From Melampsora larici-populina 98AG31 (lineage: Eukaryota; Basidiomycota; Pucciniomycetes; Pucciniales; Melampsoraceae): DNA of 64,000 bases. Positions 8,461-32,278 of the stretch are shown here, piece by piece. The position numbers and the translations under genes are program-made. Location of the stretch: NCBI RefSeq assembly GCF_000204055.1, contig NW_006768780.1, positions 36,286 through 100,285 of the forward strand. The letters are read 5' to 3'. Under the pieces are notes generated by a model. The model saw only the letters and a list, made by a program, of their open reading frames with translations, did not search any database and was not told the origin of the DNA. Position 1 is the first letter of the stretch. Each line of letters starts with the position of its first letter.

Positions 8461-8614
8461 CTACTTGCTTGATGTCTGGTGATCACTGTGGTTAGTCACC
8501 ACAAGTGACTGACCATTACCCACAATCATTTGGCCTCACCATTATCTAAAGCACCATGTAATTAGAACATTTAACTTGTAATCAAGCACCAGCCATCAAT
8601 CAAGTAGTCACTTG

Positions 8615-8806
8615 GGAATATAATTACTCATAAGTTAATTAAAAGAATCAACATCTGAGTAATTATATTCCCAATTATGGAATATAATTACTCATAAGTT
8701 AATTAAAAGAATCAACATCTGAGTAATTATATTCCCAATTATGGAATATAATTACTCATAAGTTAATTAAAAGAATCAACATCTGAGTAATTATATTCCC
8801 AATTAT
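8615..8806. repeat. 64-bp hairpin-forming tandem repeat, 3 copies
   Basis: Three copies of a 64-base unit start at 8615, 8679 and 8743. Within each, GGAATATAATTACTCA at the start is the exact reverse complement of TGAGTAATTATATTCC near the end, so every unit can fold into a 16-bp stem. The unit resembles a tiny inverted-repeat element that has been tandemly amplified. Confidence 0.85.
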
Positions 8807-9179
8807 AACAATTAACATATGACAATTAACATATGAGTCATTATGTTCCCATGTCTGGTGATCACTGGGGTTAGTCACCACAAGTGACTGACCATTACCC
8901 ACAATCATTTGGCCTCACTATTGGTCATACAATCAAAAATGTTTCCATTGTATGAACAATGGTGAACCCAAAAATGCCTCACCATTGGACATACAATGAA
9001 CAATGGTGAACCCAAAAATCACCTTTGATTCTATGAATCAACTTCTTTTTGGTCCTATAATGCAACATATAAACTGCCTTGCAAAGCTTAGCTTATAATC
9101 ACATTGCTCAAGTTCAATGTGATTAGCACAATAAAGTACCATGTCATCAGAACAATTACATGGGGTGAGTCACCACCAG

Positions 9180-9840
9180 TCCAGTGACTTACCATTATAA
9201 TAACTCATAAGGTATTTAGAATAATTCCTTATGAGTGATTATATTCCCAAGTGACTACTTGCTTGAAGACTTGTGCTCTAAGTGAGTGACAGGTGGTAAT
9301 CAACAATTTACGTTGTAAATTGCTCAAGTACAATGTGATTAGAACAACAAAGGGTCCTATAATGCAACATATAAAGTGCCTTGCAAAGTTAGAATAATTA
9401 CTTATGAGTGATTATATTCCCAAGTGACTACTTGCTTGAACACTTGTGCTCACTGGAATTAGTCACCCCCAGTGTTACTACATTCAATAAGTGAGTGACT
9501 GGTGGTAATCTACAAATTCCCTTGTAATTTGCTCAAGTACAATGTGATTAGAACAACAAAGGGTCCTATAATGCAACATATAAAGTGCCTTGCAAAGTTA
9601 GAATAATTACTTATGAGTGATTATATTCCCAAGTGACTACTTGCTTGAACACTTGTGCTCCCTGGAATTAGTCACCACCAGTGTTACTACATTCAATAAG
9701 TGAGTGACTGGTGGTAATCTACAAATTGCCTTGTAATTTGCTCAAGTACAATGTGATTAGAACAATAAAGGGTCCTATAATGTAACATATAAACTGCCAT
9801 TTACTTGCAATGTTTAGCTTACAAGTAAATTGCTCAAGTA
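9180..9840. repeat. About 209-bp tandem repeat, about 3 copies
   Basis: A long unit starting at AGAATAATTACTTATGAGTG occurs at 9391 and 9600, with a diverged earlier copy from about 9215. Each unit carries AAGTGACTACTTGCTTGAAC, GTGAGTGACTGGTGGTAATC and CAAAGGGTCCTATAATGC. The array ends just before the left edge of the KDZ element. No coding capacity is seen. Confidence 0.75.
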
Positions 9841-9898
9841 CAGTGTGATTAGAACAATAAAGGACCATGTAATTAGAACAATTACATGGGGCACCTGT

Positions 9899-10170
9899 GG
9901 CGCCTACACCAAGCGACTACGTAGTCGATGGTGAAGTGACGCGCACCATCGACCTCGAGTCGGACCTAAAGCCCAGAGCACATATGATACACTGAGCCAC
10001 TGATTTGTCAAATTGAAAGAACTCAGATGGAACTTTTTTTGAGTGTAGATGCTATTTCTATGCATGTCTCATCAAAGAAGAAATTTATTTTTTAATCTTA
10101 TTCATGGTGTTATTGACACAAGGTGTTGCCAGAGCCCTCTGGGTGACTCCAGAGCGCTCTGATAGGGCTC
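9899..10170 (+). repeat. Left terminal inverted repeat of the KDZ element (unique part)
   Basis: It aligns with the reverse complement of about 28945-29171 over its whole length. Shared landmarks in order are GCGCCT, AGCGACTACG, the region around CACCATCGAC, AAGCCCAGAGCAC, a stretch ending in GAACTTTTT, ACAAGGT, TTGCCAGAGC and GCTCTGATAGGG. The arms have diverged by substitutions and small indels. Confidence 0.75.
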
Positions 10171-11265
10171 CCACAGCAGTGCGGAGAGCTTCAAACCATC
10201 ATAGAGCAGCTTCACAGCATATGAAATGTGCTTCACAGCAGTGCGGAGAGCTTCAAACCATCATAGAGCAGCTTCACAGCATATGAAATGTGCTTCACAG
10301 CAGTGCGGAAAGCCTCAAACCATCATAGAGCTGCTTCACAGCATATACAAGGTGCTTCACAGCAGTGCGGAAAGCCTCAAACCATCATAGAGCTGCTTCA
10401 CAGCATATAACAGGTGCTTCACAGCAGTGCACAGAGCTTCAAAAAATTATAGAGCTGCTTCACAGCATATACAAGGTGCTTCACAGCAGTGCGGAAAGCT
10501 TCAAACCATCATAGAGCTGCTTCACAGCATATAACAGGTGCTTCACAGCAGTGCACAGAGCTTCAAAAGTTTATAGAGCTGCTTCACAGCATATACAAGG
10601 TGCTTCACAGCAGGGCGGAAAGCTTCAAACCATCATAGAGCTGCTTCACAGCATATAACAGGTGCTTCACAGCAGTGCACAGAGCTTCAAAAAATTATAG
10701 AGCTGCTTCACAGCATATACAAGGTGCTTCACAGCAGTGCGGAAAGCTTCAAACCATCATAGAGCTGCTTCACAGCATATACAAGGTGCTTCACAGCAGT
10801 GCGGAAAGCTTCAAACCATCATAGAGCCGCTTCACAGCATATAACAGGTGCTTCACAGCAGTGCACAGAGCTTCAAAAAATTTCAGAGCAGCTTCACAGC
10901 ATATAAAAGGTGCTTCACAGCAGTGCGGAAGGCCTCAAACCATCATAGAGCTGCTTCACAGCATATAAAAGGTGCTTCACAGCAAATAAAAGGCACTTCA
11001 CAGCAGATCAGTGCAAACAGCTTCAACACACTGCACACCAGCTTGCGGAAACATTCAAAACAGTGGAGAACAGCTTCACATCAGAGCACGTGGGCTTCAC
11101 AGCAGTTCAAAAATCTTGTAACCACCATAGACCAGCTTCACAGCAAGAAATGTGGCTTCACAGCAGTGAGCAAACATTCAAAACAGTGCAGAACAGCTTC
11201 ACATCAGAGCACGTGGGCTTCACAGCAGTTCAAAAATCTTGTAAGCACTACAGACCAGCTTCAAA
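10171..11265 (+). repeat. Left subterminal array of about 62-bp repeats (CTTCACAGCA family)
   Basis: More than ten head-to-tail copies of a roughly 62-base unit of the form GTGCTTCACAGCAGTGCGG, AAGCTTCAAACCATCATAGAG, CTGCTTCACAGCATATAACAG. Each unit has two CTTCACAGCA words. From about 11000 the array becomes irregular, with CTTCACATCAGAGCACGTGG variants. The reading frames seen here are repeat artefacts. It mirrors the array at 28060-28950. Confidence 0.9.
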
Positions 11266-11488
11266 GATTGTTTTGTATTGCACGTGATTACATCTCACTG
11301 AGGAAACCCAGATTTTACCTTCCTTTAGGAAACAAACACAAGCCAAGAATCTAAAACCTCATTGAATTGACATATGTGAATACAATTATATTATACTCAA
11401 TGATCTAATCCCAATTCAAGATAAAAGCAAGCAAAAATGACATCCAATACCAAAAGTACCAAAGACATCATGAATCCTACAATCACGT

Positions 11489-14085
11489 TCAGTTGAAATT
11501 TTCTGACTGGTGTTGCTTTTTCTTTCTCTTTTTGTCTTGAATAGTTTGATCACCATTAGCCAAAGCCTTGAGCTTACGCTTAAGATTATTCTTTACCTGT
11601 GACCCTGTGTGAAGTTCCTTTGTTTGATTAATCTGAGTGGCTTGATCATGAGATGAAACATTGGTAATTTGTGTATTTGTAGGCTGACTATCGTTGTTGA
11701 TATTGTTGTCGTGGATTTGACAGTCTAAGTCAGCGTCAGAGTCAACTCTTTGAAAAGCTCTGCGAGCCCGAATTACTTTTAAGATAGATTCCCGAGTTTG
11801 CTCATGATCACTTCTGACATTTCTTCCTGAATTGTCTAAATTGTTGTGACAGGATGAGGTATGTACATTCAATCTTTGAGACTGAGTGAGGACCTGATGG
11901 TTTCGGTGCTTTTTTGGACGTTGAGGATTGATTGATACTGTGAAATCGCTTTCTGACTCGTCTCCAGAGGATGAATTCAATCTTTGCGGCTGAGTGACAA
12001 CCTTACGGTTTTGGCGCTTTTTTGGACGTGGAGGGTTGACAGAATCGAAATCTGGAATCATTTCAATGACAAATCGTTCATTTTCAATGTCGTCAAGCCA
12101 GCGCTTCACACTCGAATCTCTTGCATCTCGATGGCCTATTTCGAGTTCGGCTTTAGATAGGAGACTTCCAGGTTTTTGTAAGATCTGTATTGGCCACCCC
12201 TTTTCCAAGATCTCGGCTTCTGGATGGGCCTTCTTTGGAAAGATCTTGTCCTTGCCCGACAACAGATTGCCTAAGATTGAGAATATTAACAATCAGCTCA
12301 ATTTCAGTTATAATTCAAGTTAAAATTTCCACCAGAAAATCTCAGATTCACAGCGGTGTGATACACTTTCAAATAATGTAGATAGGCTTCACAGCGGTGG
12401 CTAAATCATAAAGACAATGTAGAAAAAAACAAAGACACTAATTATTAAGGAAGTCTTACCAACTAGGGCATTGAGTTCCTTCCCTAAGCGACTCTTTCGT
12501 TCATCACTTGGTTGTTGCATCTTGCCACTTTCAACAATCTTTGCCGCAGATATTCCATGAACGTATGATCGTAGTGTACTCGGGACCTGGGCATCGTTCA
12601 AAGCCCACTGTGCAAAGAGTGTGTTGTTTGAGTATACTTGCGACCACCCTTCAATACTCCCACAGCTGACCGCCGCTAAGTAGTAGGTAATTTGATATTG
12701 TTGACAGACTACCACAAACTGAGTGAGAAGCAGTGAAATGTAAGCCCCTGAAGGTTATATGAGGTTTCATATCACAAAGAGACACACTTACTGTGTGATG
12801 TGCCTTCTTTAATTCCGACAAGGACCGTTGTTGAAGAGTGGCTATTGACTTTGAAGTGTCTGGTTTTCCACGAGATAATTGAAGTTTTTCAACATCAACA
12901 AGGTCGTCAAATAAAGGTTGATATTTGAGGCGCTCGTCTTCCGTCAGTTTGTGAACCGCAGGTGCAACTGATGTTGCATCTTGGCCCAATTCAGCTCCAT
13001 CTTCATTTTCAAGTGGTACATCCAAAAGATCGGGGAGATTTGACAATGATAAAAAGAGGGGATCTTTAAAGACGTCCCTTTGGTCCACGGTGAAACCATT
13101 CCAGATATCAGAAAGCTTTGTATTGTAAGCACTCCAAGCTTTTTTATCATCACGAGAAGGCACTAAATCCAGGCAAGGTTTTGAGAATGGAAAAATTGCT
13201 TTCATCAGTATGGCATGATTGGAAATTTGATGGTTTGATCAAGGTTTTTACAATGAACTTACTTTGTTCAGCCAGTGCAAGTGGGCAAAATGATTTAAAA
13301 CGCATCCAGGGATTTGCTTTTCCCTTCTTTGGGCCCTCACCACTAATGTAAATCAAGAAAGAAGACCATAGAACACACAAATGTATGTGAGAAACAATCA
13401 AAGACATCCAAAAAAAGAAGTAATAGGAGGGAGAAGTTACTTACACAATGTTCCAAACAACTACTTCGGGCACTCCACCCATCAAAGCAGCCATCAACAT
13501 GCGCTTCTCATATTCTAAACGAATGGTCTTCACTAGAGATTTGACATCCTTTGGTGCCTTACTTGACCGCGAACCCTGCTTTGCAATGTTTTCCCGAAGC
13601 TCATCCACTGTCCAATCGTCCAAAAAATCCTCGTAATTATCCATCTCAAATCCAGGAAATTGAGAACGGAATATGGTTTTCTTGGTGGAAGCATTTTGAT
13701 TGTTCTGTGCTGATCTATCTCTGACTCTATTTTGGTCCAAAATCTGTTGTTGCGCAAGAGGTTGGATTATAGAGTGATCTGATTTGAGTGAATAAGCATC
13801 ATCTTGCTCTTCATCATATTCATCCTCAGTATCAAAGTCGTCATCAGACTGGGGGTGTTGAGATTGAGGCTTTTGAGATTTCTTAGAAGTTGCTTTGATT
13901 GTCTTGGGAGTAGCTTTAAGTTTCTTAGAGGTTGCTTTAGATTTCCTAGAGGTTGCTTTAGATTTCGTAGCAGTTGCTTTAGTAGATTGTTGCTTGGCTT
14001 TTGAGTTATGTTGAGTTTCCTTGGTAGAGGATGGATTTTGATTTGACCCTCGTGTCGAATGGGGATTTGAGCGTGTGAAAGGCAT
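11489..14085 (-). CDS. Conserved unknown protein A, KDZ-element copy
   Basis: Function unknown. On the minus strand, exons 14085-13445, 13342-13263, 13198-12792, 12718-12460 and 12270-11489 join in phase to give 722 aa with no stop. The N-terminus is low-complexity and basic (repeated KATSKK-like words), followed by an acidic block. The core matches protein A at 1898-3840: helical TVDELRENIAKQG...LMGGV, AYNTKLSDIWNGF, the YQITYYLAAVS...GWSQVYS block, FPKKAHPEA and KRWLDDIENERFVIE. Unlike locus 1, this copy has a long C-terminal tail rich in Gln, Asn and Lys/Arg with a nuclear-localisation-like RKRKLK and KKRKKK. It is convergent with the left terminal repeat and divergent from the FAR1/OTU gene. 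Cargo of the element; a role with the dioxygenase is inference. Confidence 0.75.
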
Positions 14086-15105
14086 TGATGCAGAAATGTG
14101 ATGTTGTGGATGTGGATGGAGAATTGTGGTTCTGTAGTTTCTTTTCTTGTCAGAGGATCCTGAGGAGCATAGCCTTAATGTAAGCTTGATCATTTGGTAA
14201 CACCTACACGTGGCCAGGAACTGACCCGGCCATGTGTACATATGGTTCAGCAATTGACGCGGCCATGTATATATATATGTATATATATATATATATATAT
14301 ACATGTGTGTGTATAGCAGCTTCACAGCAGCAAACATTGGCCTCACAGCAGTTTCAAAAATCTCAAACAGTGTAGAGTGACTACACATTGGAACATGTGG
14401 GCTTCACAGCAGCCCAACAAGCTTGTAAGTACCAGACTAGCTTCCCAGCAGAAATTTGAGGCTTCACAGCAGTGCAAAAAGCTTTAAAACAATGCATACC
14501 ATCTTCACAGCAGGAAACACAGGCTTCACAGCAGTTTGGAAATATGTAAAACAGTGGAGACCAGCTTCACATCAGAGCGTGAGGGCTTCACAGCATGTCA
14601 AATATCTTGTGAGCACTACAGACCAGCTTCACAGCAGGCAGTGGGCTTCACAGCAGGTCAACAAGCTCCTAAGCACCCTAGAACAGCTTCACAGCAGTTT
14701 GGAAATATGTAAAACAGTTGAGACCAGCTTCACATCAGAGCATGAGGGCTTCACAGCATGTCAAAAATCGTGTGAGCACTACAGACCAGCTTCACAGCAG
14801 GCAGTGGGCTTCACAGCAGTGCGAAAATATCTAAAACAGTGGAAGACCAGCTTCACAGCAGGATTTGTGGAGTTCACAGCAGTGCGAAAAGCTTTGAAAC
14901 ACTACATAACCATTTCACAGATTGTTCTGTATTGCATGTGATTACATGTCACTCAGGAATCACAGATTTTACCTTCCTTTCTTCTTCCCCGAGTCTGCAC
15001 AGCTTTCATACTTCACATGCTTCATCACATCATTCATCAGCTTCACATCAAATCACCACCTCTCTAAATCAAATCAATATCTTCACATCTGTCTTCACAG
15101 CAAGA
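14086..15105 (+). repeat. Internal CTTCACAGCA array and AT/TG microsatellite between divergent genes
   Basis: An (AT)n/(TG)n microsatellite at about 14265-14313 is followed by irregular copies of CTTCACAGCAG...AAACAGTGGAGACCAGCTTCACATCAG up to about 14930. The array lies between the start of protein A (-) and the ATG of the FAR1/OTU gene (+), so it forms the shared upstream region of two divergent genes. Open frames reading into it from the right belong to the repeat. Confidence 0.8.
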
Positions 15106-18100
15106 ATGCCTCCCCGACGGTCTAAACGCAAAGCTCTACCTTGCTCCAAGAAAACGAATCATTCTACATCCACACCCAATACTACCGAACCGATTGAATT
15201 CCAAATAACCAGCCCTATTGGATCGATTAACCATTGTCCTCCTTCACAGGATGATCAACCTCTCCTTACAGTCAAACCTCAAGACAGCAATCCAATCGAA
15301 TCTCAAATCACCAATCCTATTGTTTCGATCAGTGATGGTCCTCCTCCTACCGATGAAGAACTTCTAGCCACAGTTCCTCCAACCAATAATCAACCTCTAG
15401 TTACAGCCAACCCTCACGAAGACAATGCTCCTGATGAAGATGCTGATGAAGAAGGTCCTAATGATGATCATCAAGATGATCAACCTCAAATTATGTATTA
15501 CACTTTGCCAACACCACCACCAGGTGTTTTTCAAGACAAAAATAAGTTAATAGATCATATCAACTCAAATTCATTGCAACATGGTTACAAGATCTCGATT
15601 CTAGGTCAGACTCGACAGGTACAGATTGATTTCAAGTGTTCCAAAGGAAAAACCCGTCAGCCATGGAGCAAGGGTACCTGTCCTTTCAAACTAGTGGCGA
15701 AACAACCGACCAAGAAAGATCTCTGGACACTCACTGTTGTGGAACCTCGACATGATCATCCAGCTAGCACTCTTGAACTGAAAATACGATCAAAGCCTAA
15801 CTTTAAATCAGAAGAATTTGTAGAAGATGAAGAGGAAGTGGCTTACCTTAATTTTGTTTCTGAATGGTCTGAAGATTTATCGTGGTCTGGAAATTCATTT
15901 TCACTTCCTTTGAACCTCAGTACACACCTTAAAGAAGAATACACAGGCTTATTCCGGCGAATGAGAAAATTAGATGATGTTACTCAGGATTACCTCCTTC
16001 AAGCTTTTAAAAAGGCTTTGTCAACTACTGAATTGATTGTCAAGAACAAAAAAAAACGCAAGAGGAATTCAGCCGATCAAACATTCAACAAACCAGTCAA
16101 AGTTCCTCATATTGATATTGAATCACTTGCTAAGACGAACAATCTAACCACCGAGTTGAAGAACATACCTGGTGCTGACACCTCGACAAAAGCTGCTGAT
16201 TTTCCTGGTATCAATCTTAATGATGAAAATGAACATCAAACACTTGCTGAAATGAATAATCTAACCAACAAGTTTCTCACCATACCTGGCTCTGAAGCGT
16301 TGAACAAAGCCAACAGTGAATCTCCTTCGGGTCATCTCACACCAACAACTAAAGCCGAATACAATCAAATGTTTTCAGGAAGTGGTGGAAATCTGAATAC
16401 CACTCAATATGAATCTCAGCCGGATGTAGATCTAAATAAATCAATGAAATCATGTGACTCTCCAATGCCTGATATCACAATGCTCTTGGATCGACAACTC
16501 AGCAAATCAAAGACGATTGATCCCTCTCTCCTAGCTCAATCTTCAGTCAAGCAATCGACTTTCAATGCTTCCCAATATGAAAAAAATGAAGATCTGACCC
16601 CTCAAGTTGAGATAACACATACAATCCAACATAAACTGAAACAAACTGAAGAAAACAAAGACGAACAGACCATCAGTGAAACTCCAGGATCCGATTCCTT
16701 TCCCAAAGATGATTCAAACACTCTTCAAAATCACCTTACTCGATGTCCATCTTCAAAAAATGCACTGCGCTCGAATACTAATGGTGTAAATCACTTGGTT
16801 TGTTCAAGATCAGCTTCACCCCCTACCTCAGGACTTTCATCTCCTGAAACTTCAGTATGCAAAAATATTATTATGTCATTGACACCAAAAGTTCGCTTTT
16901 TTCATTTCTCTTCACTTCACCAAATCAAACTAACCATCATTTCTCTTTGGTAACTTTAGAAAGGACGGACTGACAAAGATGTATCTATTGTAACCAAACA
17001 GAAAGAAGATAACAACCTTGCACACCATTCCTCTTCTCTCTCTGACAAACCACTCAATCGATCTTCCTTGGCTAACACTAGCAGGAAAATTCTGCGTTCC
17101 AATGTTTCTCAAGGGCTTAAAAACCCAAAGATCACCAAAGTATCCACCTTATCACTCAGATCCTCTTCTCGTCTTCACCAAGAAGAAGAGACGACTCAAA
17201 AAAATCGATTGGTTCCTTCAACAAGAAGACTTACAAGGGCCACGTCTGGCTCAAATCGACCAGCAGAAGCACCACACAGTTTGCCAAGTGCATCTTGCAT
17301 CTCACACAAAGCTAAGCCGATTTGTGAATCTGTCACCATTCAGCCTGTTACTTCGAGAATTGTTGATGTCAAGAATGATAAAGATTTGAATGTACGTTCT
17401 TGTTTCTCTGTCACCTTACATATCATTCATTATACTAAATGCAAGTATTGCTTTAGTCTTCTGGTTCATCATCATCAGAGCTTTCATCAGCTTCGGACGA
17501 ATCTGATGAGGAATCAGATTCAGAAATACCCGATGATGATTCAACATCAGAAAAATCCGAAGATGTTGCAGACACAGGAAATTTCGATACAGTACACCAT
17601 GTACGCATGTTGTCATGCCAATTCTTTTTTATGCTTGCTAACGCTCTGCCTACCTACCTCATTCCAGGCTTTCAAATACATTAAAGATATCCCTTCATAT
17701 CTATATCCTTTCCTAATCAAGCCAACAGATGTTCAACGGAATGGCTTATGTTCATTCTCATCGATTGCAGTCTCCATGGGGCGCTCAAAAAGAGATTCTA
17801 TAAAAGTACGAGATGAGTTGAAACAAGAACTTTTAGCAAGATATCCTTGGTATGAAAAGAATATGCCGGATTTCTCCATTGGTTACAATGTTGAAAAAAT
17901 TCTCACCATCCTCAACAATCCTGAAGACCAAGCCGAAAAAGAATTGTGGCTACCAATGTTGGCTTGCCTACCTCTCATTGCCAATACCTACAAGCAGCCA
18001 GTAATCTATTATAGCTCCCCCGATTCTTACTCAAGGTTTTCTTTTCCATTCTTCAGCCCACCTCCAAAGCTAGTCAAACCAATTGTTGTATGCTTTGTCA

Positions 18101-18345
18101 ACAAGGATCACTACATCTCACTCACACTAGATTTCACAAAGGAAGTTCCTATACCGGTCCTATGTCCTGAGTGGAAAACATTGCATGAGACCTCTGCTAA
18201 TCTATGGAATGGTATGTACGACTTTAATTATTCAGTTTTCAAAGAAATCAAATCAAAAAGGGACGAAGAGAAAAGGGAAGAAGAGGTTAAGATAGCTTCT
18301 CAAGATAATTTCAAACCTAAAAAACCCCCAACATTCATAGATTGA
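15106..18345 (+). CDS. FAR1-like zinc-finger / OTU-protease fusion protein, KDZ cargo
   Basis: Exons 15106-16890, 16960-17391, 17457-17600 and 17668-18345 are all in phase and give 1012 aa. The ATG (MPPRRSKRKA) was chosen over the frame extending into the repeats. Residues about 140-220 resemble a FAR1/WRKY-GCM1-type finger: Cys178, Cys192 in GTCPF, Trp207 and a HDH at 216-218. A long disordered, Ser/Asp-rich middle follows. The last 220 residues resemble an OTU cysteine protease: D808-V-Q-R-N-G-L-C815-S-F with a catalytic His935 in NKDHYISL. In MULE transposons FAR1-type fingers and OTU domains usually flank a transposase; here no transposase core is seen. Plausible roles are binding the CTTCACAKCA repeats and removing ubiquitin, both inference. 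Confidence 0.7.
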
Positions 18346-19517
18346 TTAACATATTTGTGTATTTATGATGAGTATTGTGAAGAATTCTCAGTTTTTGGTT
18401 TCTTTAATTTTTTTGATGACTTCAGAATTCTCAGTTTTTGGTTTATTTTATTTTTTTGATGACTTCACATCTGAAATGTTTCGAATTATGTGAAGTATAA
18501 TTTTTGTGGGTAATATTTTTTCATGATTCATTGTGGTCTGAGTACAGATTCAACAATATGTGTATTTCAAAGTTCAATGTGAAGTCAAAATTATATATGT
18601 AATCTCCAAGTTCCAGGCCTTCCTCTTGAATCATCATTGTATGATGAAAGATCGATAATGTGCAAATCCAAGTTGGTTGTGAAGTTGAAAATAAATGAAG
18701 GAGCCCCCCACAAATCTCGAATTGTTGTGAAGGTAGCTGTGAAGGACATACCTCATTGTGGGTCACCTTCACATCAAAGACTTTTCTACTTCACATCACA
18801 GCCTATTATACTTCACATCAAAAAAAATTCTACTTCACATCAAAGAATGTTCTACTTCACATCAAATAATATTCTACTTCACATCAAAGAATATTTGTAG
18901 TCTCTACTTCACATCCATCATGAAGATTATTGTTGTGATGTGAACCTGTCAAGTTAAGAAGTTTCTACTTCACATCAAGAATTGTATGTGAAGTAGAAAC
19001 TAGAAGTTAACACAAATCTTGAATTGTTGTGAAGGTAGCTGTGAAGGACATACCTCATTGTGGGTCACCTTCACATCAAAGACTTTTCTACTTCACATCA
19101 CAGCTTATTATACTTCACATCAAAAAATATTCTACTTCACATCCAAGAATGTTCTACTTCACATCAAATAATATTCTACTTCACATCCAAGAATATTTGT
19201 AGTCTCTACTTCACATCCATCATGAAGATTATTGTTGTGATGTGAACCTGTCAAGTTAAGAAGTTTCTACTTCACATCAAGAATTGTATGTGAAGTAGAA
19301 ACTTTCAAGTTAAGAAGCCAAAACGTCACATTGGGAAATATATGTCAAGTAAGAAACTTCTGAACCTTAAAGCTTCACATCGAAGAAGGAGAAACTTCAC
19401 AGGAATCCAATTGAAGAAGTGAATGCATAACACATATCAACATTGATGAGTAGAAAAAAAAACATGACCCACACAAAAAAAGGAAACAAAAAAATTATCA
19501 AAGATGAAAAAACTCGG
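18346..19517. repeat. Internal CTTCACATCA array with a 302-bp tandem duplication
   Basis: The 3' sides of the FAR1/OTU gene and the TET/JBP gene face each other here. A block of about 302 bases starting at 18711 (CAAATCTCGAATTGTTGTGAAGG) is repeated at about 19013 with few changes. Both copies carry runs of CTACTTCACATCAAAGAAT and a palindromic CTACTTCACATCAAGAATTGTATGTGAAGTAG. Near 18370-18470 the string GAATTCTCAGTTTTTGGTTT occurs twice. No gene is supported. Confidence 0.8.
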
Positions 19518-20798
19518 TTAAAAATTATCTTCCCAAATTCCCAACTTGATGGCAAGTGCCTTCATTTTTGCATGGGCCTGAACACCATAACCATGTAGCT
19601 GTGTATCTCGATAAACATTCCATTGTTTTTCATTCATGCCATCTCGTAATGCATACACCTTTGCAATCCTTTGAACCAGGGACAAAGAGATCTGGCATGA
19701 GCAAGCAAATCGTGTCACTTCTGCATCAGCAGGTGCTACTCTTTGATTGTTTGCATCGTAAGTTTTGGATGGACTGGTGTGATGGTTAACCTGTGTATTC
19801 CATATGAGTTCAAGCACCCCGTCAGATGAGTCTAGGTCTACTTCCAGGTTGTAATCATCCAATACAAATCGAGCACCAATGACATTACCCCTAGGCACTG
19901 TTGACCCTTTTTCATAAAGTTCACCAGTTGCACGATCAATGAGGCAAAAGAATCCAAAAGCATAGTCGGTAGCATCGTGGTCTTTATGCTTTTTGTTGGT
20001 AAATTCGTCACAGGTCATTGTTATATTGGACGAGAAGACTTGGGAATTTGGTGAAACATAGAAAGATTGATTCGCCCAAGATGGAGCATCAGTTATCAAA
20101 GCTAAGGTACTATTTGATTGAAAGGCATTATATGAGAGTCCAGAAAATCGTTCGGCAATGAAGTTTTCTATTTCAGGCAAATTTCCCTGGCGTTTGAGAT
20201 CAGCCTCCATCTTGGCATAATCAGCAGCTGTTTCTTCATTCCAAGTGTAGGTACCTGTTATCATAAACATGTTAGTTAGCCTACATCAGTATATAAAACA
20301 AGATATTTTTGGAGAACTATGATCACCTGCTGCTACTCCTTTCTCATATCCAGGTCTCAAGCCAAATGCATACATGGTTCCATGCTTGCGAATCCTACGC
20401 TTCTCTTTATAACTTGCACCATTAATATTAATAATTCCACGCGCCTTAGCATGCTGATAGATTGTACTAATAGAATGATTGTACGACTCAAAAAGGTCCT
20501 CATTAACTTCGTCTCTCTCAACAAATCTTGCCACCAGTAGCAATTCAGATGTATCAGCATCAAGGCATACAACTGTCCCATATCGGACTGTGAAGCGAGC
20601 TCTTTTTAACCAGCGGCCTTTCTTGAAAAATAAAAATTTTGTATCTGAGGGTAGGCCATACTGTTCGATCAATTCTGCTTTACTTGCAGCTCGTGCATTG
20701 ATTAAAGGGCGAGCTCTTTCTGGATCCTGCATGTTTTTATTGATCGTATGATTCGCTCTGGCCTTACGGGTACTTGGTGATTTGTATTTATGACCCAT
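19518..20798 (-). CDS. TET/JBP-like 2-oxoglutarate/Fe(II) dioxygenase, KDZ-element copy
   Basis: On the minus strand, exons 20798-20327 and 20254-19518 join in phase to give 402 aa. The basic N-terminus (MGHKYKSPSTRKAR) leads to a conserved YGLPSDTKFLFFKKG block, as in the paralogue at 5419. The catalytic half has the HxD motif in KKHKDHDA (about H247/D249), a distal His in VNHHTSPS (H315/H316) and Arg339 in TRFACSCQIS. Also conserved are GFFCLIDRATGEL and VIGARFVLDDYNLEVDLDSSDG. All catalytic residues expected of this fold are present, so the enzyme should be active. Such enzymes oxidise methylated bases in DNA, which could lift host methylation from the element; that use is inference. Confidence 0.75.
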
Positions 20799-23700
20799 TT
20801 GACGAATTGAAAGGGAATTGGTGTGATTGATTGAAGATTAAGTCGAGAACAGGAGAACATTCCAAAGTGAAAATGACCCAAAGAACTGTCGAAGAAGAAG
20901 TTGAGAATGATCCGGATGATGTGCAATTAAGAAGTATAGAAGACCTATCAGGAAGTTTAATCGGATCCAGAATGATCCAAATGACCTAATTAGCTATTGA
21001 TCAAGGTTGAAGTTGTGATTCATTTGAATATGAAGTTAAGAAACATACGATTCAATTAAGAGGTTCAGAATTTCTTGAAGAGCGATTAAGTTGTTGAGAA
21101 GAATTCGATTTGCGTTTCAGAGTAATCAAGTCGATGAGAGCGATTTGAATTACGTTAGAGTGCTTTGAATCGAACAATTTGGGGAGCGATATGTTCGAGG
21201 TTAAGATTAATCTGGTAGATACGAAGGCCTCTTGAATATGAAGTAGAGAAGGATGTAAAGTAATTAATGGTAAGAGCAATGATGTGAAGAGCGATTAAGA
21301 TCTTGAGACTGATTTGAAGGGCGATTGAGGCTTTTAGAACCATTCAAAGAGCAATTAAGAAGTTGAGATCAATCCAAAGACCAAATAAAGAGTTCTGAAG
21401 AATTCAACAAATTCGCTCCCCTCTAGCTTCTGTGTTATGCGTCGCGATGAACTCAATCTCCGAAGCATGCAGGGGTTTGAAAGTGTTAATCTAATGGTTT
21501 ATCAGGTTCTATCCACCAAAGACCTTCAAAGACGACTTGCCATTTGAAATTTTCAAACTTTCACATGTTTATCCCAAAATTTCACATGTTCATGCTAGAC
21601 TTGTATACATATGTCACATGTTGGCAACCAAGATCAAATGGGCGGTCAAATGATGTGATGTGATGTGAATTATATATCAAGAATAATTACTCCTAAATAT
21701 GTCACATGATGGGAACCATATTCAAATGGGTGGTGAATTGATCTGATTTGATATGTAGTTGATTAATGTCTTCACATGAAGAGTCCTATTTGAATTACTC
21801 AAAATGGCATGTGTCATTGAGATGCACAAAGAGTTATGATATAATGAGAATAATTCCTTCTAATGAACACCCTTTTTGATGTATACAAGAACACCACATT
21901 ACCACAGATTTTATATATCATGAGCATGTCATCTAATTCCATTGTCATAACATGATTCAAACCTACAAATATGTGTTTTTTCTAGAATGGAATGTGTTCT
22001 AATTGCATCAGAATTCATAATTTCCTTCATAGTCAAAAAAGACCAGTGATTCACAAAGACAGCCTTTGTGTTTGATTTATTCAATGTGCCAATCAAAATG
22101 GACTAAGTAATACAAATCAGATTGAATTCATTCCAAAGATACCCATATTTTTATCTAGGTGACCTTCTAGTAAACAAAATCAAAAAAGTCTCATAAATAT
22201 ATAATATCAAATGTGTTTCCAAAGTTGTGTGCCTTCTACTTATGGTGATAGATCAAATTGAATCCCAGAGTACCAATAGGATACTTGAGGGATATGACCG
22301 TAACCAATAATACAACCAAAGATCTTCCCTGTTGTCTTGACTAACAGGTTCAGGTGTTCTTCAGACTTCTATTTAGTTAAGAATAGAAGAGAATCTGAGG
22401 TTCACAAGTATCTAAGTCTTGAAGCAATAAAATCTTTTCAGATTTTATTGCTTCAGGGTGAAATTATTGAAGACACATCTTACTATAGCGTACATGGCAA
22501 GAAACTAAACTGGGTTTCATACTGATGCATCAGATGCATGCACTTATTTTGATTTTCCACTATGTTTGCCTCATTATAATTCCTCAAGTGACTCAGTCAA
22601 ACACAAGGATCAATCACCAAGCTTCAATTATTGAACCAATTAGAAGGTGAACCATCTACCTGAACTTCAAGATTGAATATAGGGTCTTGCCCATCACCAC
22701 CCCCACTGACATGGAAACTAATTTTCCCAACTGTAGTATCACCTTATCAAGAACCTGCATGGAAAATACCTACTAGAAGGCTTTCCAACAGAGGAAACAT
22801 CAATATCTTATGCCATGAAATCTACTTTCCGTTCCCTTCAATTAACATCATCACATATCCTATTCAGGATACAAAGCCTTCTCAGACATACAAAACATTG
22901 AATTCTTAGTTATCTGATGATTCAGAAACAAGTATAAAGTTGAAAGACTTTTGTATACAGCAGTCAAGTTGATAAAACACATCTATCCAACTGTCAAGGG
23001 TAATATATCAGGAAAAGAAGAATGAAAATATGAAGTGAGACAACAAAGAAGTTTGAAGACAGCCAAGTTGCACTTACGAGCAAGAATGATGACCAAATAA
23101 TCATCTACCTCAAATATATTGTGAATTATAAAGAGAACATAATCAGCACGCCTCATTCACAAGAAGGAACTCAAGCAGAGACCATTAAGATAGGTTGTTG
23201 ATGATTCAAATCAATAGAAGTTAAAAAATGTTGTATGTCCATACGAGTTTAATAAGATTAAGTTGAGAGACTTGCTACATTTCTTACCTTCCACCTTGAT
23301 TTGGAATGCTCTGCTGATTTTGTTATCTTACACTGTGATTCTTACACCATGAGGTGTTCTATTATGATTGACCCTGTTTCTGGAATTGGACTCAGAAAAG
23401 ATGGAAAAGATCAATGATTTACAGAGGGTTTTTGGAAAAGAAGTGATATGGAAGTGAATATATGAAACCTCAACCACCTGGATGCTTTTCCTTTCCAAGG
23501 TTGCTTACTCTTCTTCTGGCAAAATCAATCTAACTTTCACTTCAAACTTTTGGATTTTGTCTTGAAGTAACCTTTGACAAAACAGACATAAATTTAAACA
23601 AGAATTTCACTTTGATGATGTTTTCTGATCAAACATCAAACATGAAAGATGTGTTGGACTACGTGTTTGAGATGTTTCATAAATTCTCACCATTGAGTGT

Positions 23701-24309
23701 GAGCAAGCAACATATGCAAGTATTGCAACATGTATAGCTTTGGAGAATACAAATATACGAGACATTGTAAGATGATATGTGACTGCTTAACATATTGAAT
23801 GGTTCAGTATCCATTACTACTACTACAAAGCAGATTTGTTACTGACAAGGACTAAATGTTGTGCCTGGTCATAACTATTCTACATGAATCTATTCGTTCT
23901 TCCTCAAAAGTAAGTAAAAGATATCTCACCTATGTCCATTTTAGACACTTGGACTGGCCTGTACTTACAGTGCTCCAACCTTATCTATTCAAGAGTGTCA
24001 CATCAATCATTATTGGATTGGTGTGCCTATGTTGACGGTTGACCGGCGAAGTCCATTTAGAGTGACCAATCAATCACTGATTTAATGATTGGCACTAGCA
24101 ATAGAGTATTCACCGACACTAGTTTTTGTATGGACAATTCACCAGAAATCTCCTTGATGAAGTCATTCATTATGAGGTCATTTCATTTGTAATACTTTCA
24201 TCAATTACCAACCAGGGAAAACATGATTGAGATCATTTGAATAATAATCATAACCAGTTGATTCGTATAAACTACAGATTTATATCATAACAACTAGTCT
24301 TTTCATGCA
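20799..24309. other. AT-rich region upstream of the KDZ transposase
   Basis: No gene is recognised in these 3.5 kb. About 20820-21400 is a degenerate purine-rich stretch with many GAAGTTGAG, GAGCGATTAAG and AATTAAGAAG words. A perfect 14-bp hairpin lies at 22421-22454 (GAAGCAATAAAATC, TTTTCA, GATTTTATTGCTTC). Short frames at 22337-22525 and 22673-22909 do not join into anything identifiable. The region must contain the transposase promoter and may hold remains of a lost cargo gene. Confidence 0.5.
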
Positions 24310-27300
24310 ATGGCTTTATTTGGAGAAGAAGTCAAGCCAGCCAAGAAACGAGCCCGACGTGATAACCCAGCAGGCGAAGGAAGCGCAAGCCAGAGATGGA
24401 ACCAACTGCAGACTCGCAAAGCTGAAGCAGCTCAGGCCCGGCTTGGCTCTCTGAAGACTGAACATCAGCCTGTTCAGGATCAAATTTCCTCTGAACCACC
24501 TCTGCAGCATCATGATCTCGATAGTAATGAAGATGACGATGGTGACAATGGTGATGAAGTTATTGCACCACAGGTGTATGAAGAGCTCCATCTGGTTGAA
24601 GAGGCAAACCCAGCCTCTGGAGAAGGAGATAATCTGACAGTGATACCGGCCAACCGATCTGACTACTATCGAGGTGTAACTTACCAAGAGCGAACACTTT
24701 GTGAAGAAGCTGACTGGCAGGATGTCATTCCACAAATCTTTAGGGTGTTCATACCTTGTGCTCAGAAGACTCGACAATGGGGCGACCAGAATTTATGGAA
24801 TTTTGACTGGAATTCTCAGTGCAGATGTGCTGGTTGGCAGAAGTCTGAGGTTGAAGTGGATGCTATAGATATCTTAAGTGAGTGTATCCTGACTCAGCTC
24901 AGACAATTGTCATCCTTGATTTGAAGTGTATATCAATGTTTGTTCATAGGCCGTCAGAAGATCAAACTTCAGACCTGTCGATGCATTCCTGATGTAGTGC
25001 GGCTAGTTATGAAAGGCTACATGGGTGGTTCAGCAGATCGGCCACGGACTGCATTCTCGATCCGTTTACTACGCTTTAATCACATACTGTGGAAGCATTG
25101 CACAGCTCGTCTTGCTCCCTTTGTTGAGGGGCTAAATGAGTTCCTTGATGCCTCAAATGCTCTTTTTTTGGTACCAGGTACTGATAATGTAAGTATTTCT
25201 CTCATCTCAAAATTGTTATCTATACTAAAACTTCTTTTTGGCAGGGTAGACTCGCGACTGGCGAAAGAACTTCTCAGCAGCTGTTGATGCGTATCGGGAG
25301 ATGATTCGGCTTGAGGAAGAGATGGTTACGAAAGCTTTGCATTTAACACCAATTGATCAGCTTGCATCAAACTGCCCACCTTGCTTTGGACCGGTTGTTC
25401 CAGGAAAGCGAGCAGAAGAGCCCAACTATATCATATGCTTAGATGGTAATTTCCAGCACAGGCGACACATGGCTGCAAGTGCTTCTTGGCGAGGTGAGAG
25501 CGGACTTTTACCCTCTCTTTTCATTTCACCAGAGCTTGTGAAGGTGTGGGAGTCGCAATTGGGGCAACGAGGGCGTAACAATCGTCAACAGAAACCTGAA
25601 GTCATTGTAAGACAATTGAAACTTCTATGCATATAAATATATGTTTATTGACATTTTTCTATTGTTGCCTCAGGACCCATGTACTAGCCAGCACACAGCA
25701 GCCAATGATGTACGCGGTAGACAGACTTGGAAGGGGTTTGATGAGACAGGTCTGATGGGTATGGCATGCCGCCATGATCATCTGCTTAAGTTAATCAATA
25801 TTGTACAGACAGGCGAACGGTGTGTGGTTCAGACATCTCGTATATTTTTAGAATACTCACTTACTTCTTTACTCACAGGGGTGAATACCCTCTTGCAATG
25901 CTTGACTGGATTCTCAAGCGAACTGTCAACAATGATCAGACTTCCACCTTGTTTGGAGTACTATATGACATTGGATGTAACCTAGAGAAGAGCATCAAAA
26001 AGGTTGTACACTTTTGTTCTATCTGACCAAACGGTTCATTCACTGAAAACACATTTTCTTAATATGTAGAGAAACTTTTTTGAACGGTTTATTGATCAAA
26101 TGAAGTTTGGAACAAGTGTCTTCCACTCATACGTACACCAGTGGTCATGTCAATTAAGGTACAACCCACGATTGAATGTAGATTGGGGGCTGTCAGATGG
26201 TGAAGGTCTCGAAAGGATATGGTCCGCTCTGTCATCCTTGGTTGGCCCTTCGCGGTACTGTACGAAGCTTCACAGGCTTGTTGCTTTATACCTGCGTGCA
26301 ACTCATCACAATGAGGCTCGTAGATTTGCATCTGGTTTGTCAAACTTTTTTTGATTCCGAAATACACAGTACATTCTAAATGAAAGGAAATGACTTTTTG
26401 TGTAGTTAAATGGTTATTGAAACGCTTGTCAACAAGCCATCAACTATATTCTGAAAGCGACCAAAAGTTAAATCACTTGAAGACCAATCCTGCTTACTCT
26501 GACCAATATTTTGAGACCCAATGGAACAGACAGCGGGAGTCTCAGTTGCAGGTGATGGTTCACGATAATTTGCAAAGCTTGGAGGAAAAAGTGAACAAGC
26601 TGACCAGCCTGGAAGAAAGCTACCATGAGTCCGAGTTGAGCATACTTTTGATTATTTTTAATTTTTCCAAGGATCTTTGATAGTCAACCTTGATTTGGAT
26701 GATATAGGGAAGAACTCGAGTTTTTGCGGGCTAAGCACAGAAGAGATAGGACTCCACTCGAAAATGATAAGATCAATAACCTACCGGTGAGATTGAGAAT
26801 ACTGCAGGGTGAGATTGATCAATTAGTTGAAAACCTAGGTGGAGATCATTACAGGGATATGCCGTCTGATAGTAAGTATCTTTTGCTGATGATTTGGAAG
26901 TATTACTCTGATATAAATATTAAAATATTGAATAGCTCCAAAAGGTGCCAAACTTATCCGAATCCGAGTGGCAAAGTCAACATTGTATGGTGCCAAAGTG
27001 GATTTGTTTGAAATGCAAAAGCTCAGTGATCGCAGAGAAGGTGTGTAGATAGCATGCACATTTCAATTATTTTAGTTCCATTGCTGATATTACAACCCTA
27101 TGAAGGAACCCGTCTTCAACAAAAAACAAAGCGAGATTTGAGAGTCAAGCAAACGGCTTTGAAGAAGAAACACGATACATTCCACAAACTGGTTACGGAA
27201 TTTAATGAAGCATTCCCATCTCCGCATCCTATTAATTGCCCTCCTTTTGACGACATCAAAGGACTTCCAGTATTTGATCCTTTCTGGGATATGGGTGACT

Positions 27301-28000
27301 TAACCCATCCAACGGAAGCCTGGGCTGTGGATCAAAAGACTAAAGAGGGCATTGTGGCATATCGTGATAAGATCCATGCTTTTGATGAGCTGCGTCGTGT
27401 AGGGCGTGAGTGCAGACAGTCAATAAAGTGGGCATTGGAAATGGACACAAAGATTCAGTTGCTTGAGACTAGGATAGAAGGTGAGTAGTTGATAAGCAAA
27501 GTTGTCAATTGGATGATAAAGCTCATGGTATATATGGTGTTTCAGATGAGAATCCAGATGATGATTCAAGTAAATGGATGGTAGGATTAGTGGGATCTAC
27601 CAAGGCAAAACCTGCAGATCGATTGAATGAAAGTAAAAATATCTTACGTGGTATTGTTGGACATCTCCGTCAGGATTTCTCTCGCCTATGGATGTCGTGG
27701 AACTGTGGGATGCCTCAGCTCCTGGATGGTACTGCTGAATATAGTCAGATGTTGGAACCAGAAGAAGCCTTGTTGACAACAAGGTGGGCAGGATTAGTTG
27801 AGACAAGTAGGTTGATGTGGAAAGCAAATTCCCAAGCAGAGATTGTAGAGGCCACACCTATGGATGAGGGAGAATTGGCCGAGCAACATCTGGCCAACCT
27901 TGATGAATACCTTGATGAAGACAACGGTGAAGAGGATGATTTGGAAGAGGTCAACAAGAATGAAGATGTTGATTCAGATGAGGGTATTGATCTTGATTAA
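24310..28000 (+). CDS. KDZ transposase (CxC1-type cysteine cluster)
   Basis: Catalyses element transposition. Exons 24310-24877, 24950-25188, 25250-25606, 25674-25819, 25879-26002, 26070-26334, 26406-26628, 26708-26871, 26936-27040, 27106-27480 and 27546-28000 are all in phase and give 1006 aa with no stop. After an NLS-like start (KPAKKRARR) comes a cysteine cluster (NSQCRCAGWQ...LQTCRCIPDVV), the CxC1-type region preceding KDZ transposases. The RNase-H-like core shows LDGNFQHRRH (D334), DETGLMGMACRHD, YDIGC (D467) and WGLSDGEGLERIWS (E523/E526), the expected D-D-E order. A coiled-coil C-terminus and an acidic tail follow. It is the only transposase between the terminal repeats and is intact, so the element may be able to move itself. 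Confidence 0.85.
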
Positions 28001-28059
28001 GGTGTTATTGATTTGTATTTGCCGCTGTGAATCTGCTCTACAATGTTTTGAAGCACCTT

Positions 28060-28950
28060 TTATTTGCTCTACAATTTTATGAAGCGCCTTTTATCTGCTG
28101 TGAAGCTTTCCACACTGCTGTGAAGCACCTGTTAGATGCTGTGAAGCTGCTCTATAATGGTTTGAGGCTTTTCGCACTGCTGTGAAGCATCTTTATATGC
28201 TGTGAAGGTGCTCTAGAATATTTTGAGGCTGTCCGCACTGCTGTGAATCATCTTTACATGCTGTGAAGCTGCTCTTCAATATATAACAGGTGCTGTGAAG
28301 CACCTGTTATATGCTGTGAAGCTGCTCTATAATGGTTTGAGGCTGTCCGCACTGCTGTGAAGCATCTTTACATGCTGTGAAGCTGCTCTTCAATGGTTTG
28401 GAGCTGTCCGCACTGCTGTGAAGCATCTTTACATGCTGTGAAGGTGCTCTATGATATTTTGAGGCTGTCCGCACTGCTGTGAAGCATCTTTACATGCTGT
28501 GAAGCTGCTCTTCAATCTTTTGAAGCTTTCCCCCCTGCTGTGAAGCGCCTTTTATCTGCTGTGAAGCTGCTCTATAATGGTTTGAGGCTGTCCGCACTGC
28601 TGTGAAGCATCTTTACATGCTGTGAAGCTGCTCTTCAATGGTTTGGAGCTGTCCGCACTGCTGTGAAGCATCTTTACATGCTGTGAAGGTGCTCTGATAT
28701 TTTGAGGCTGTCCGCACTGCTGTGAAGCATCTTTACATGCTGTGAAGCTGCTCTTCTTGTTTTGGAGCTGTCCGCACTGCTGTGAAGCACCTTTACATGC
28801 TGTGAAGGTGCTCTATGATATTTTGAGGCTGTCCGCACTGCTGTGAAGCACCATGCTGTGAAGCTGCTCTTCAATGTTTTGGAGCTTTCTGTACTGCTGT
28901 GAAGCACCTATTATATGCTGTGAAGCTGCTCTTCAATGTTTTGGAGCTTT
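28060..28950 (-). repeat. Right subterminal array of about 62-bp repeats (TGCTGTGAAG family)
   Basis: Head-to-tail copies of TGCTGTGAAGCTGCTCT..., TGGTTTGAGGCTGTCCG..., CACTGCTGTGAAGCATCTTTACA repeat immediately after the transposase stop codon. Read on the minus strand they match the left array (CTTCACAGCAGTGCGG...CTTCACAGCAT). Together the two arrays form the inner part of long inverted repeats. Confidence 0.9.
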
Positions 28951-29171
28951 CCGTACTGCTGTGAGGGCCCTATCAGAGCACTCTGTGAGTCACACAGAGC
29001 GCTCTGGCAAAACCTTGTGTGACTTACAAAAAGTTCAATTTGAGTTGTTTCAAAGTCACAAGTTTGTTAGCCCAGTGCATCTTACGTGCTCTGGGCTTTA
29101 CAATCGATTCAAAGTCGATGGTGTATGCCATCTTCCCTTCGACTTCGTAGTCGCTTCTTACAGGAGGCGCG
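28945..29171 (-). repeat. Right terminal inverted repeat of the KDZ element (unique part)
   Basis: The reverse complement aligns with 9899-10170. It carries CCTATCAGAGCACTCTG, GAGCGCTCTGGCAA, GTGCTCTGGGCTTTAC, a CGACTTCGTAGTCGC block and finally AGGAGGCGCG. Immediately beyond, the sequence is coding (minus strand) for the MULE-like protein. Confidence 0.75.
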
Positions 29172-29941
29172 AATGGCTGCATGAATTGAATTTTGACCAA
29201 TGGATAAAATGGACCTAATACTGCCATCCTGCGGATTCATATCCCATGTGGACCGCGATGAAAAGAACTTCATCAACTTGGTATAAATATGTTTTGATTT
29301 ACCACTTGACCCGCTGTACCAAAACGTGGTATGCACTGCATACATGCACTCGGTCATGGCATTGAGCCAACACCGGTTTTTGTGACCTTGCTTGTAACAA
29401 GCTTGAAATCCTTGATAGGTGGTCACCGGGTTACAATCGACATTGAGGGAACCTTTGGGCTGTCCCAGTTTTTTGGGTGGACCAAGCAAAGCATTTGTGG
29501 TGTCCGGTGGGCGACCATCATTCTTTTCGAGCTTGCGATTTTGAGTCTTCTTGGACCAGCCAAGTAGCTGAGCTACTTTTGCATAATTCTTGTGTCCATA
29601 TTTGACTGGAACCCCGCGAAGTAGATCCTCGTGATCTCTTTGAAGGCATTTCACAAATGCATACAACTGTACAGTCAACTCTCTCTAAGTTGATGTCTCT
29701 TTAAGTGCATAATTCTTTATGTGCATAAGAATTTTTTCCGCCATTTTTGGCGGCACCAAAACCAAGTGTTAACTGCATAAAATCCCTTAACTGCATACTG
29801 CATAAGATTTTGAGCCGCCATAAGTCCATATAGGTGCATAAATTCTATGTAAAATTTGATTTCTCTCAGGTTCTGCCTGATTCTGCACGTCTCCACAATC
29901 CCACCAAACCTTCAAAGCTTCCATACTTCACACTCCAAACA

Positions 29942-32278
29942 ATGCCCAACAAATCAACAAGAAGGTTTGGAGTTGATCCAGTCCAATATGAAACCGAGAA
30001 TCCTCCACATGCTATCCGTGTAGGAAACATCCTTTACCTTTCAAATTCTGATCTTCCTCTCTCAAAAATTGAAGCCGAAAGCATGGCTACGGAAGAGTTC
30101 GAGATTGATCAACTTCAGACTGGTCTCAAATCATTGAAAGCCAGCTGCGACAAGAAAATCTCCGATCTCACTCAACGCCAAAATCGAGGTGAAACTCTTT
30201 CTGCTGAAGATGAAGAATGGCTTGATCAGAACGGAAATCTTATTACCGAGCAACTTGTGATCAATGAAATCCTCAACCTTGATGAGAACTCCAGCCAATG
30301 TCTCAGTCGCTCCCAGTTTGATGCCATCACGGTTCTTTCCGAGGGCTATGAACAACACAAGCTTGATCAGAAAGTAGAAAATCAATCAAATAAAAGAAAA
30401 AGAAACTCACCCCAGCCAAATTCGAAGCCAACAAAGCTCAAAGGTGCAAAGAAATCAAAAGGGACGTCAACCAAAATCTGCTCGGCCACGATTTCTCAGA
30501 AGCTCCAGATTCTCGACTGGTTCCATGCAAATGGAGAAAGCCAGAAGAAAACAGTTGAGCACTTTAGTTTACACTTACCCGATCTCAACTTGAAGCAACC
30601 AACACTCAGCCGATGGATTGGCTCTGAGGTCAAGATCCGCGAGACTGCTCCAGTCAACTCACAAACAGCTCTTCGAGTCCGACCAGTGAAGCATTCTGAC
30701 ATTGAGACAATGCTTGAACAATGGCTTGACGAGGCTTATGCTTCTGGAGTCATCATTACGGGTGAGGTAATCAAAGCTCAATGGAAGGACTTTGCTCGTA
30801 AAAAGAACCTCCCCGAAGATCAATGGCTTCGGGTGAGTGATGGATGGCTCACCCGATTCAAAACTCGACACAACATCCAGCTCTACACTAACCATGGCGA
30901 AGCTGGGTCAGTTGACATGGCGACTGTCAAAGATGAAATCAAACGGGTTCAAGATATCAATCGAGAATTTAATTATTCAGACATATACAATATGGATGAG
31001 ACTGCATTGTTTTATGCGTAAGTTTTGTTTTTAACATCCTTTCTTCATATGTCCTCATCATCATTGTTTTGTTCTTTTAGCATGCCACCTGATTGAGGTC
31101 TGGCAAAGGAGGGCAAATCTGGAGTGAAAGGGGTTAAAGCTCGGATCACGATCGTAGTCACCACCAATGCTGATGGATCCGACAAACGACATCTTACTTT
31201 CATTGGTCACGCCCGTCATCCACAGCCTTTCAAGAGGAAAGGGGGTCGTGAGGCTCATAACCTTGATTATCACTGGAACTCGAAGGCTTGGATGACTAGC
31301 TCTATCTTTGCCGAGTGGATTTATGAGTGGGACCGCAATCTAGCTGTAGAGAAGAGAAACATAATCCTATGGGTCGATAACTTCTCTGGACACGTTGTTC
31401 CAGAAGGATCTCTCAAGAATATCCGACTTGAAAAGTTCAAGCCCAATCTAACCTCTCACATCCAGCCATGCGATGCTGGGATAATCCGAACATTCAAAGC
31501 TCATTATTGAAAACGGTTCATCAATCGATTGATTTGAAACTTTTCGCAAGGCATGTGTGGTGCCGAGATATACAAAATCAACATATTACAAGCCATGAAG
31601 ATGGCTAAACATGCTTGGAACTCGGTTTCATCAAACACTATCAAGCACTGCTGGGCTCATACAAAAGTAATTTCCATCAATGGAAACTTTTCTATGTAAG
31701 CCTTTGATCCTTTCTTCTTTACCCAATCATATCAATGCGTTAATTCACTGAATATCGCTCGGTCTCGATCTCTTCCAAAAGCGAGGAGACTCACTCGGAG
31801 ATCGAAGAAGGTTTAAGAAATTTACAAGCAATTGGCGCTCTCTCATCATCGAACACAATCTCACTAGAGAACCATTATTCAATCCATAGACGAGATTGAG
31901 ATTTCACACGAGGTCTCATCAACAGAAGATATATTCAATGAATACTGTCTTAACCACAAGGAATCTGAAGCCGAAGAGAATCCATCAGAACTTGAACCCN
32001 NNNNNNNNNNNNNNNNNNNNNNNNNNNNNNNNNNNNNNNNNNNNNNNNNNNNNNNNNNNNNNNNNNNNNNNNNNNNNNNNNNNNNNNNNNNNNNNNNNNG
32101 CTATGAAAGAATGTCGACTCTGTTTCGCTTCATTGAAACACAAGACTGTGTTGAGGCAGATGATTGTGATGCCCCTTTGCACAAGCTTGAAAGATACATC
32201 AAGACTCAAATCTTTCATTCTTTCTCAAAACAAACTGACCTCACCGATTTTTTCCAAATACATCACAACAACAAATGA
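29942..32278 (+). pseudogene. Pogo-like transposase (CENP-B HTH + DDE_1), inactivated
   Basis: The ATG at 29942 (MPNKSTRRFG) was chosen. An acidic N-terminus is followed by a helix-turn-helix pair: SQKLQILDWFHANGESQKKT...PTLSRWI, then ITGEVIKAQWKDFA...VSDGWLTRFKTRH, as in CENP-B/pogo proteins. The DDE core is NMDETALFYA (exon end 31017; intron to about 31080), IILWVDNFSGHV and SHIQPCDAGIIRTFKAHY. TGA stops at 31094, 31508 and 31535 break the frame where Arg is expected. The last exon ends KQTDLTDFFQ, which fits a PCNA-interacting PIP box, a feature known at the C-terminus of pogo transposase. Part of the 3' half is hidden by the N gap. Confidence 0.85.
32000..32099. other. Assembly gap (100 N)
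   Basis: Exactly 100 unknown bases lie within the pogo-like element, a conventional placeholder length. The reading frame across the gap cannot be judged, and this may hide either a collapsed repeat or only a few bases. Confidence 1.

Follow-up and report, generated by a model that had tools for sequence, protein, structure and literature searches.

How does a transposon that carries a TET gene aim an unspecific oxidase at itself? The question is raised by a locus of the rust fungus Melampsora larici-populina 98AG31, found in a stretch of 64,000 nucleotides that we call the window (contig NW_006768780.1 of assembly GCF_000204055.1, positions 36,286 to 100,285 of the forward strand). At positions 9892-29175 of the window, four genes lie between inverted ends: a KDZ transposase, a TET/JBP dioxygenase, a protein in which a putative DNA-binding domain precedes an OTU protease (DBD-OTU), and a protein that we call protein A. 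The noncoding DNA around them is filled with arrays of a short motif private to the family. Taken together, the private motif, DBD-OTU and TET look like an addressed anti-silencing kit. That the element is a four-gene KDZ DNA transposon, with the anti-silencing explanation taken as a whole, has in our judgement an even chance of being right. A private motif array and a DNA-binding deubiquitinase beside TET make self-targeting directly testable.

The window has 91 copies of the motif, CTTCACAKCA, where 0.6 would be expected, and all are within the element. A left array holds 33 of them and a right array 28; another 17 lie between protein A and DBD-OTU, 12 between DBD-OTU and TET, and a single copy is at 21280. 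Inside the four gene spans there are none. The left and inner arrays have the motif on the plus strand and the right array on the minus strand; the mirror-image arrays proposed by an earlier reading of this DNA, made from its letters only (the sequence-only reading), are real, with 62-bp units on the left and 61-bp units on the right. The parts of the element, whose outer limits are set by its ends and by copies of these in other flanks, are as follows.

9892-29175: whole element
9892..10044, plus strand: left terminal inverted repeat, beginning CACCTGTGGCGCC; border shared with L002, which lies in another flank
10172..11263, plus strand: left array of 62-bp units, with 33 CTTCACAKCA, all on the plus strand
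11489..14085, minus strand: protein A gene, 5 exons (13445-14085, 13263-13342, 12792-13162, 12460-12607 or to 12718, 11489-12270), 673-710 amino acids, the length being set by one acceptor
14313..15102, plus strand: array separating the divergent genes of protein A and DBD-OTU, 17 CTTCACAKCA
15106..18345, plus strand: DBD-OTU gene, 4 exons (15106-16854, 16960-17391, 17457-17600, 17668-18345), 1000 amino acids
17668..18345, plus strand: OTU exon; domain residues 28 and 148 are Cys and His
18767..19279, plus strand: array separating the convergent genes of DBD-OTU and TET, 12 CTTCACATCA, spacing mostly 22 bp
19518..20798, minus strand: TET/JBP dioxygenase gene, exons 20327-20798 and 19518-20254, 402 amino acids, hand model
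24310..28000, plus strand: KDZ transposase gene, 11 exons, 1008 amino acids, with CxC1 cluster, hand model
28096..28925, minus strand: right array of about 61-bp units, with 28 CTTCACAGCA, all on the minus strand
29022..29175, minus strand: right terminal inverted repeat, beginning CATTCGCGCC on the minus strand; border shared with L003 and L004

Close pairs of the motif are also rare in the rest of the genome, which was searched as 98.3 Mb in 243 contigs; repeat copies are named here by contig (C75, C85, C90 and so on). Such a pair is found 50 times in 98 Mb: 42 times here, four on C75, two on C90 and once each on C85 and C182, while the reversed control gives no pair at all. The pairs on C75 and C90 are near the two closest transposase copies (94% and 91%, respectively), and C85 has a copy of the left end. 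Motif spacing is mostly 20-22 and 41 bp; this is not taken as evidence, because tandem copying alone could yield it.

Such arrays could also be ordinary subterminal repeats that bind the transposase and were spread by slippage, with TET and OTU as hitchhiking cargo. The densest arrays do lie at both ends in inverted orientation, and the C75 and C90 copies keep the motif with no cargo among the matches listed (protein A within 20 kb, TET or OTU within 12 kb). On the other hand, 29 motif copies are found in the two inner intergenic stretches, where a cutting transposase needs none, and the OTU and TET reading frames are under purifying selection. The ratio of nonsynonymous to synonymous rates (dN/dS) is 0.13-0.41 for OTU (20 listed of 27 pairs with pS < 0.6) and 0.07-0.18 for TET (14 listed of 18 pairs). 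Protein A has two pairs, a near-identical one with a ratio of 1.08 and another with 0.17. We consider this reading of arrays and cargo as a whole somewhat unlikely.

All four genes can be spliced with GT-AG introns and have no internal stop, as the sequence-only reading had it. It should be kept in mind that the gene models are predictions, set partly by hand, and that the KDZ model includes a few weak donors. A splice search by codon score broke up KDZ and preferred an earlier donor in TET, and hand models were used for both. The Pfam calls for TET, CxC1 and KDZ were made on single exons and uphold both proposed enzymes. The TET protein matches PF20515 (E 5.9e-42) and contains HxD...H; in the 29 high-scoring loci of 150 matches the first His and the Asp are always present and the second His in 27, the other two being gaps. 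The transposase matches PF18758 (E 1.4e-21) and CxC1 PF18802 (E 3.2e-22), both above cut-off. Its model also contains LDGNF, YDIGC and DGEGLERIW, which may hold the acidic catalytic residues of a DDE-type site. As to the traits of the KDZ superfamily, the element has the transposase domain, the Cys cluster and the terminal inverted repeats; no 8-bp target duplication was found at its borders.

For the third protein, a FAR1-type DNA-binder with an OTU protease had been claimed. The OTU part holds, with predicted fold, family profile and catalytic residues in agreement: the Cys is present in 40 of 41 rows (one is gapped) and the His in 39. The exon thus encodes a putative OTU-type deubiquitinase. 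A search of a large protein collection, with 389 candidates, yielded no relative at E 1e-3. The FAR1 part reaches only a sub-threshold match, to the AFT/FAR1-like (WRKY-GCM1) family PF08731 at 18.7 bits, where the cut-off is 21.6; a FAR1-type DNA-binding domain is plausible. At C48, C54, C26 and C4 two adjacent matches to the FAR1-like domain stand upstream of the OTU exon, as if tandemly doubled. The core exon of protein A gives a poor predicted structure (pLDDT 67.1) with no PDB match. A SAP-like stretch spotted in it by eye had no support from Pfam and is not claimed.

Is this gene set peculiar to the window? The counts that follow are of matches, not genes, among the matches listed, and the loci are not all independent, since equal scores indicate near-duplicates (for example C49/C68 and C62/C32). 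The genome has at least 150 TET-domain and at least 207 KDZ-domain matches (best candidates scored). TET is found within 12 kb of 60 of 150 OTU matches, compared with six for alpha-kinase, a control of similar number. When the OTU list is divided by rank, a division made after inspection, the 59 closest matches have TET within 12 kb in 39 cases, alpha-kinase in two and KDZ in 12, with no KDZ within 4 kb. For the next 48 the numbers are 20 TET and 28 KDZ, the latter mostly about 2 kb away, and for the last 43 one TET and four KDZ. Further, 24 of the 31 matches to the DNA-binding domain (20 loci) have an OTU exon on their own strand, 1.0-2.4 kb downstream. OTU is a recurring companion of TET in this genome; the sequence-only reading had thought the OTU part non-standard, and it is not a one-off.

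The target of OTU may be something other than chromatin: the element's own proteins, which would stabilise the transposase or TET, or host repair factors, which would serve repair after excision. Ginger1 transposases have OTU or Ulp1 domains for which a role in transposition or repair has been proposed (PMC2836005), and half of the KDZ-adjacent matches in the second OTU group (14 of 28) lack TET within 12 kb. The closer group, in contrast, adjoins TET and not KDZ, and many of its genes include a DNA-binding domain. We regard such a target, to the exclusion of chromatin, as unlikely.

The layout of the element is a transposase with a divergent protein A and, between them, a convergent DBD-OTU/TET pair whose pairing recurs across the genome. 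Protein A had been described as an unknown partner; instead, it is often found in divergent orientation next to KDZ genes of this genome. A KDZ match is within 12 kb of 44 of 94 protein A matches, and the orientation is divergent in 37 of the 41 that have KDZ within 8 kb. The order OTU>, <TET, KDZ> is seen at eight loci including the window. Beyond the two near copies, the next 27 transposase exons in order of closeness have protein A within 8 kb in 19 cases; within 12 kb, TET is found for two and OTU for two. Because protein A is common and TET and OTU are rare near these transposases, the present element may be of an A-KDZ type to which an OTU-TET pair was added. In a transposase tree of 21 short rows it is weakly grouped with the protein-A types (80/87); the tree is too weak to order gains and losses.

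In the explanation that we favour, a DNA-binding protein of the element itself (DBD-OTU, the transposase or protein A) would read the motif arrays as an address. TET would then act on the element and oxidise methylated cytosine, while OTU would take ubiquitin off chromatin proteins or off the element's own proteins. The genes would remain expressed and the ends would remain accessible to the transposase. This anti-silencing role is inferred. A narrower version is more doubtful: that it is the DNA-binding OTU deubiquitinase that reads the private arrays and, with the adjacent TET, frees the element, and nothing else, of both chromatin ubiquitin and DNA methylation. In this version OTU and TET would pass between transposons as a cassette.

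That the element has inverted ends, as first proposed, is clear: their local alignment (9911-10044 against the reverse complement of 29022-29156) scores 106, and 500 single-base shuffles of the right end reach at most 30. The borders had been placed at 9899 and 29171; the ends are real and the coordinates lie a few bases further outward. The first bases of the right repeat may alternatively be part of an interrupted gene. As to other genomic copies with the same borders, single ends do recur, the left in L002 (C85) and the right in L003 (C75) and L004 (C90), always in different flanks; among the matches listed, no copy has both borders together with this cargo. On C90 the end copy is at 161.6 kb and the close transposase at 189.6 kb; as they are 28 kb apart they need not be one element.

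A number of results weigh against the favoured explanation, and the first group concerns the target site. The 8-bp target duplication that the sequence-only reading offered as a check was not found: the best pair of 8-mers near the borders agrees in 6 of 8 positions and is off the border. The right border interrupts an unrelated repeated gene, which continues past this point in all three paralogues fetched, and its continuation is absent at the left border and elsewhere in the window, so the flanks are not from one target. Without a duplication and with mismatched flanks, the claim of a complete, self-contained unit is unproven. The same facts would fit a composite, in which two elements supplied the two sides, or a rearrangement took place, and the four genes are not one mobile unit; it fits as well that the left end is most like L002 and the right end most like L003 and L004. 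Yet one motif recurs in four noncoding arrays over the whole length of the element, the right-end relative on C75 also holds the nearest transposase, and inspection by eye alone suggests a reading similar to protein A next to the left end of L002. We hold a composite to be quite improbable.

The second group concerns the genes and their effect. As a single sequence the OTU exon gave no match in Pfam or PDB searches, which is why family profile and fold were needed, and three residues before its Cys the window has Asn where 22 of 41 rows have Asp. Further, of 191 KDZ matches 74 have none of the other three genes listed within 14 kb and 50 are accompanied by protein A only; all three are together in four, in varying orders. 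Observed/expected CpG is 0.46 in the element and 0.63 and 0.56 in its flanks, with 0.23-0.28 in the terminal arrays. Being CpG-depleted relative to the flanks, the element looks hypermutated. In a comparison of 30 KDZ loci, CpG of the five with TET is not above that of the 25 without (medians 0.63 and 0.75; p 0.21), and CpG depletion as an indirect test gave no support for protection. A search for cytosine methyltransferase returned one short fragment just above cut-off; genes split by introns can escape such a search.

The surroundings hold further repeats. Directly left of the element is a second TET-like dioxygenase gene (5407-6739, plus strand, PF20515 E 6.4e-37), which probably belongs to another transposon, and several tandem arrays with units of 50, 64 and 209 bp (8178-9798) adjoin the left border. 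On the right, the gene fragment cut by the border (29176-29684, minus strand) has 11 further matches in the genome. It is followed by an open frame with a Tc5-type transposase DNA-binding domain (29834-31015, plus strand, PF03221 E 1.8e-13) and by 100 N in a row (32000-32099). Open frames at 58226-58567 and 62709-63050 share their printed start, which suggests a local duplication.

How does the element compare with known systems? TET-bearing KDZ elements are known in rusts under the name Dileera (Kojima 2025, PMC12730594), and following that usage the present element is probably of this lineage. TET-positive Dileera, such as Zisupton-1_PGr, likewise have a KDZ transposase and a TET/JBP gene within inverted repeats. 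They differ in having 8-bp target duplications, and in that the main text describing them contains no occurrence of 'OTU'. The TET-positive IS3EU elements of rusts also combine TET with a second enzyme of signalling type, in their case an alpha-kinase (PMC12730594). In our genome an alpha-kinase match lies within 12 kb of 13 of 150 TET matches, on the same strand in 11, and these may be of the IS3EU type; in an earlier, partial alpha-kinase list there were seven within 8 kb, none with an OTU match.

OTU or Ulp1 proteases are found in other DNA transposons as well: OTU in Ginger1 and in some Helitrons/Helentrons, Ulp1 in Mutator (PMC2836005, PMC6431247). In those systems the transposase or Helitron protein itself contains the OTU domain, while here OTU is encoded by a gene of its own together with a FAR1-like DNA-binding domain, and this gene is paired with TET. 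Among the papers listed by our literature search we saw none on OTU joined to TET in a fungal transposon, which is no proof of absence. In wheat rusts, OTU and alpha-kinase domains have been listed as enriched, which was read as adaptation by gene duplication, with no transposon explanation in the section concerned (PMC5295586). Many OTU and some alpha-kinase matches here adjoin transposon genes, which would be a simple reading of that enrichment. An OTU-TET cassette passing between transposons would, if real, also explain part of the rust OTU expansion that was reported as adaptation.

For the mechanism, the nearest working model would be VANC of the Arabidopsis VANDAL elements. VANC binds a 9-base motif that is arrayed in one direction in the noncoding DNA of its own family, and brings about a loss of methylation (PMC5735166). 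Binding and demethylation were demonstrated for VANC, while the present arrays are known from their sequence; they share with VANDAL a short, dense motif in tandem and in one orientation, placed mainly in noncoding DNA and private to the family.
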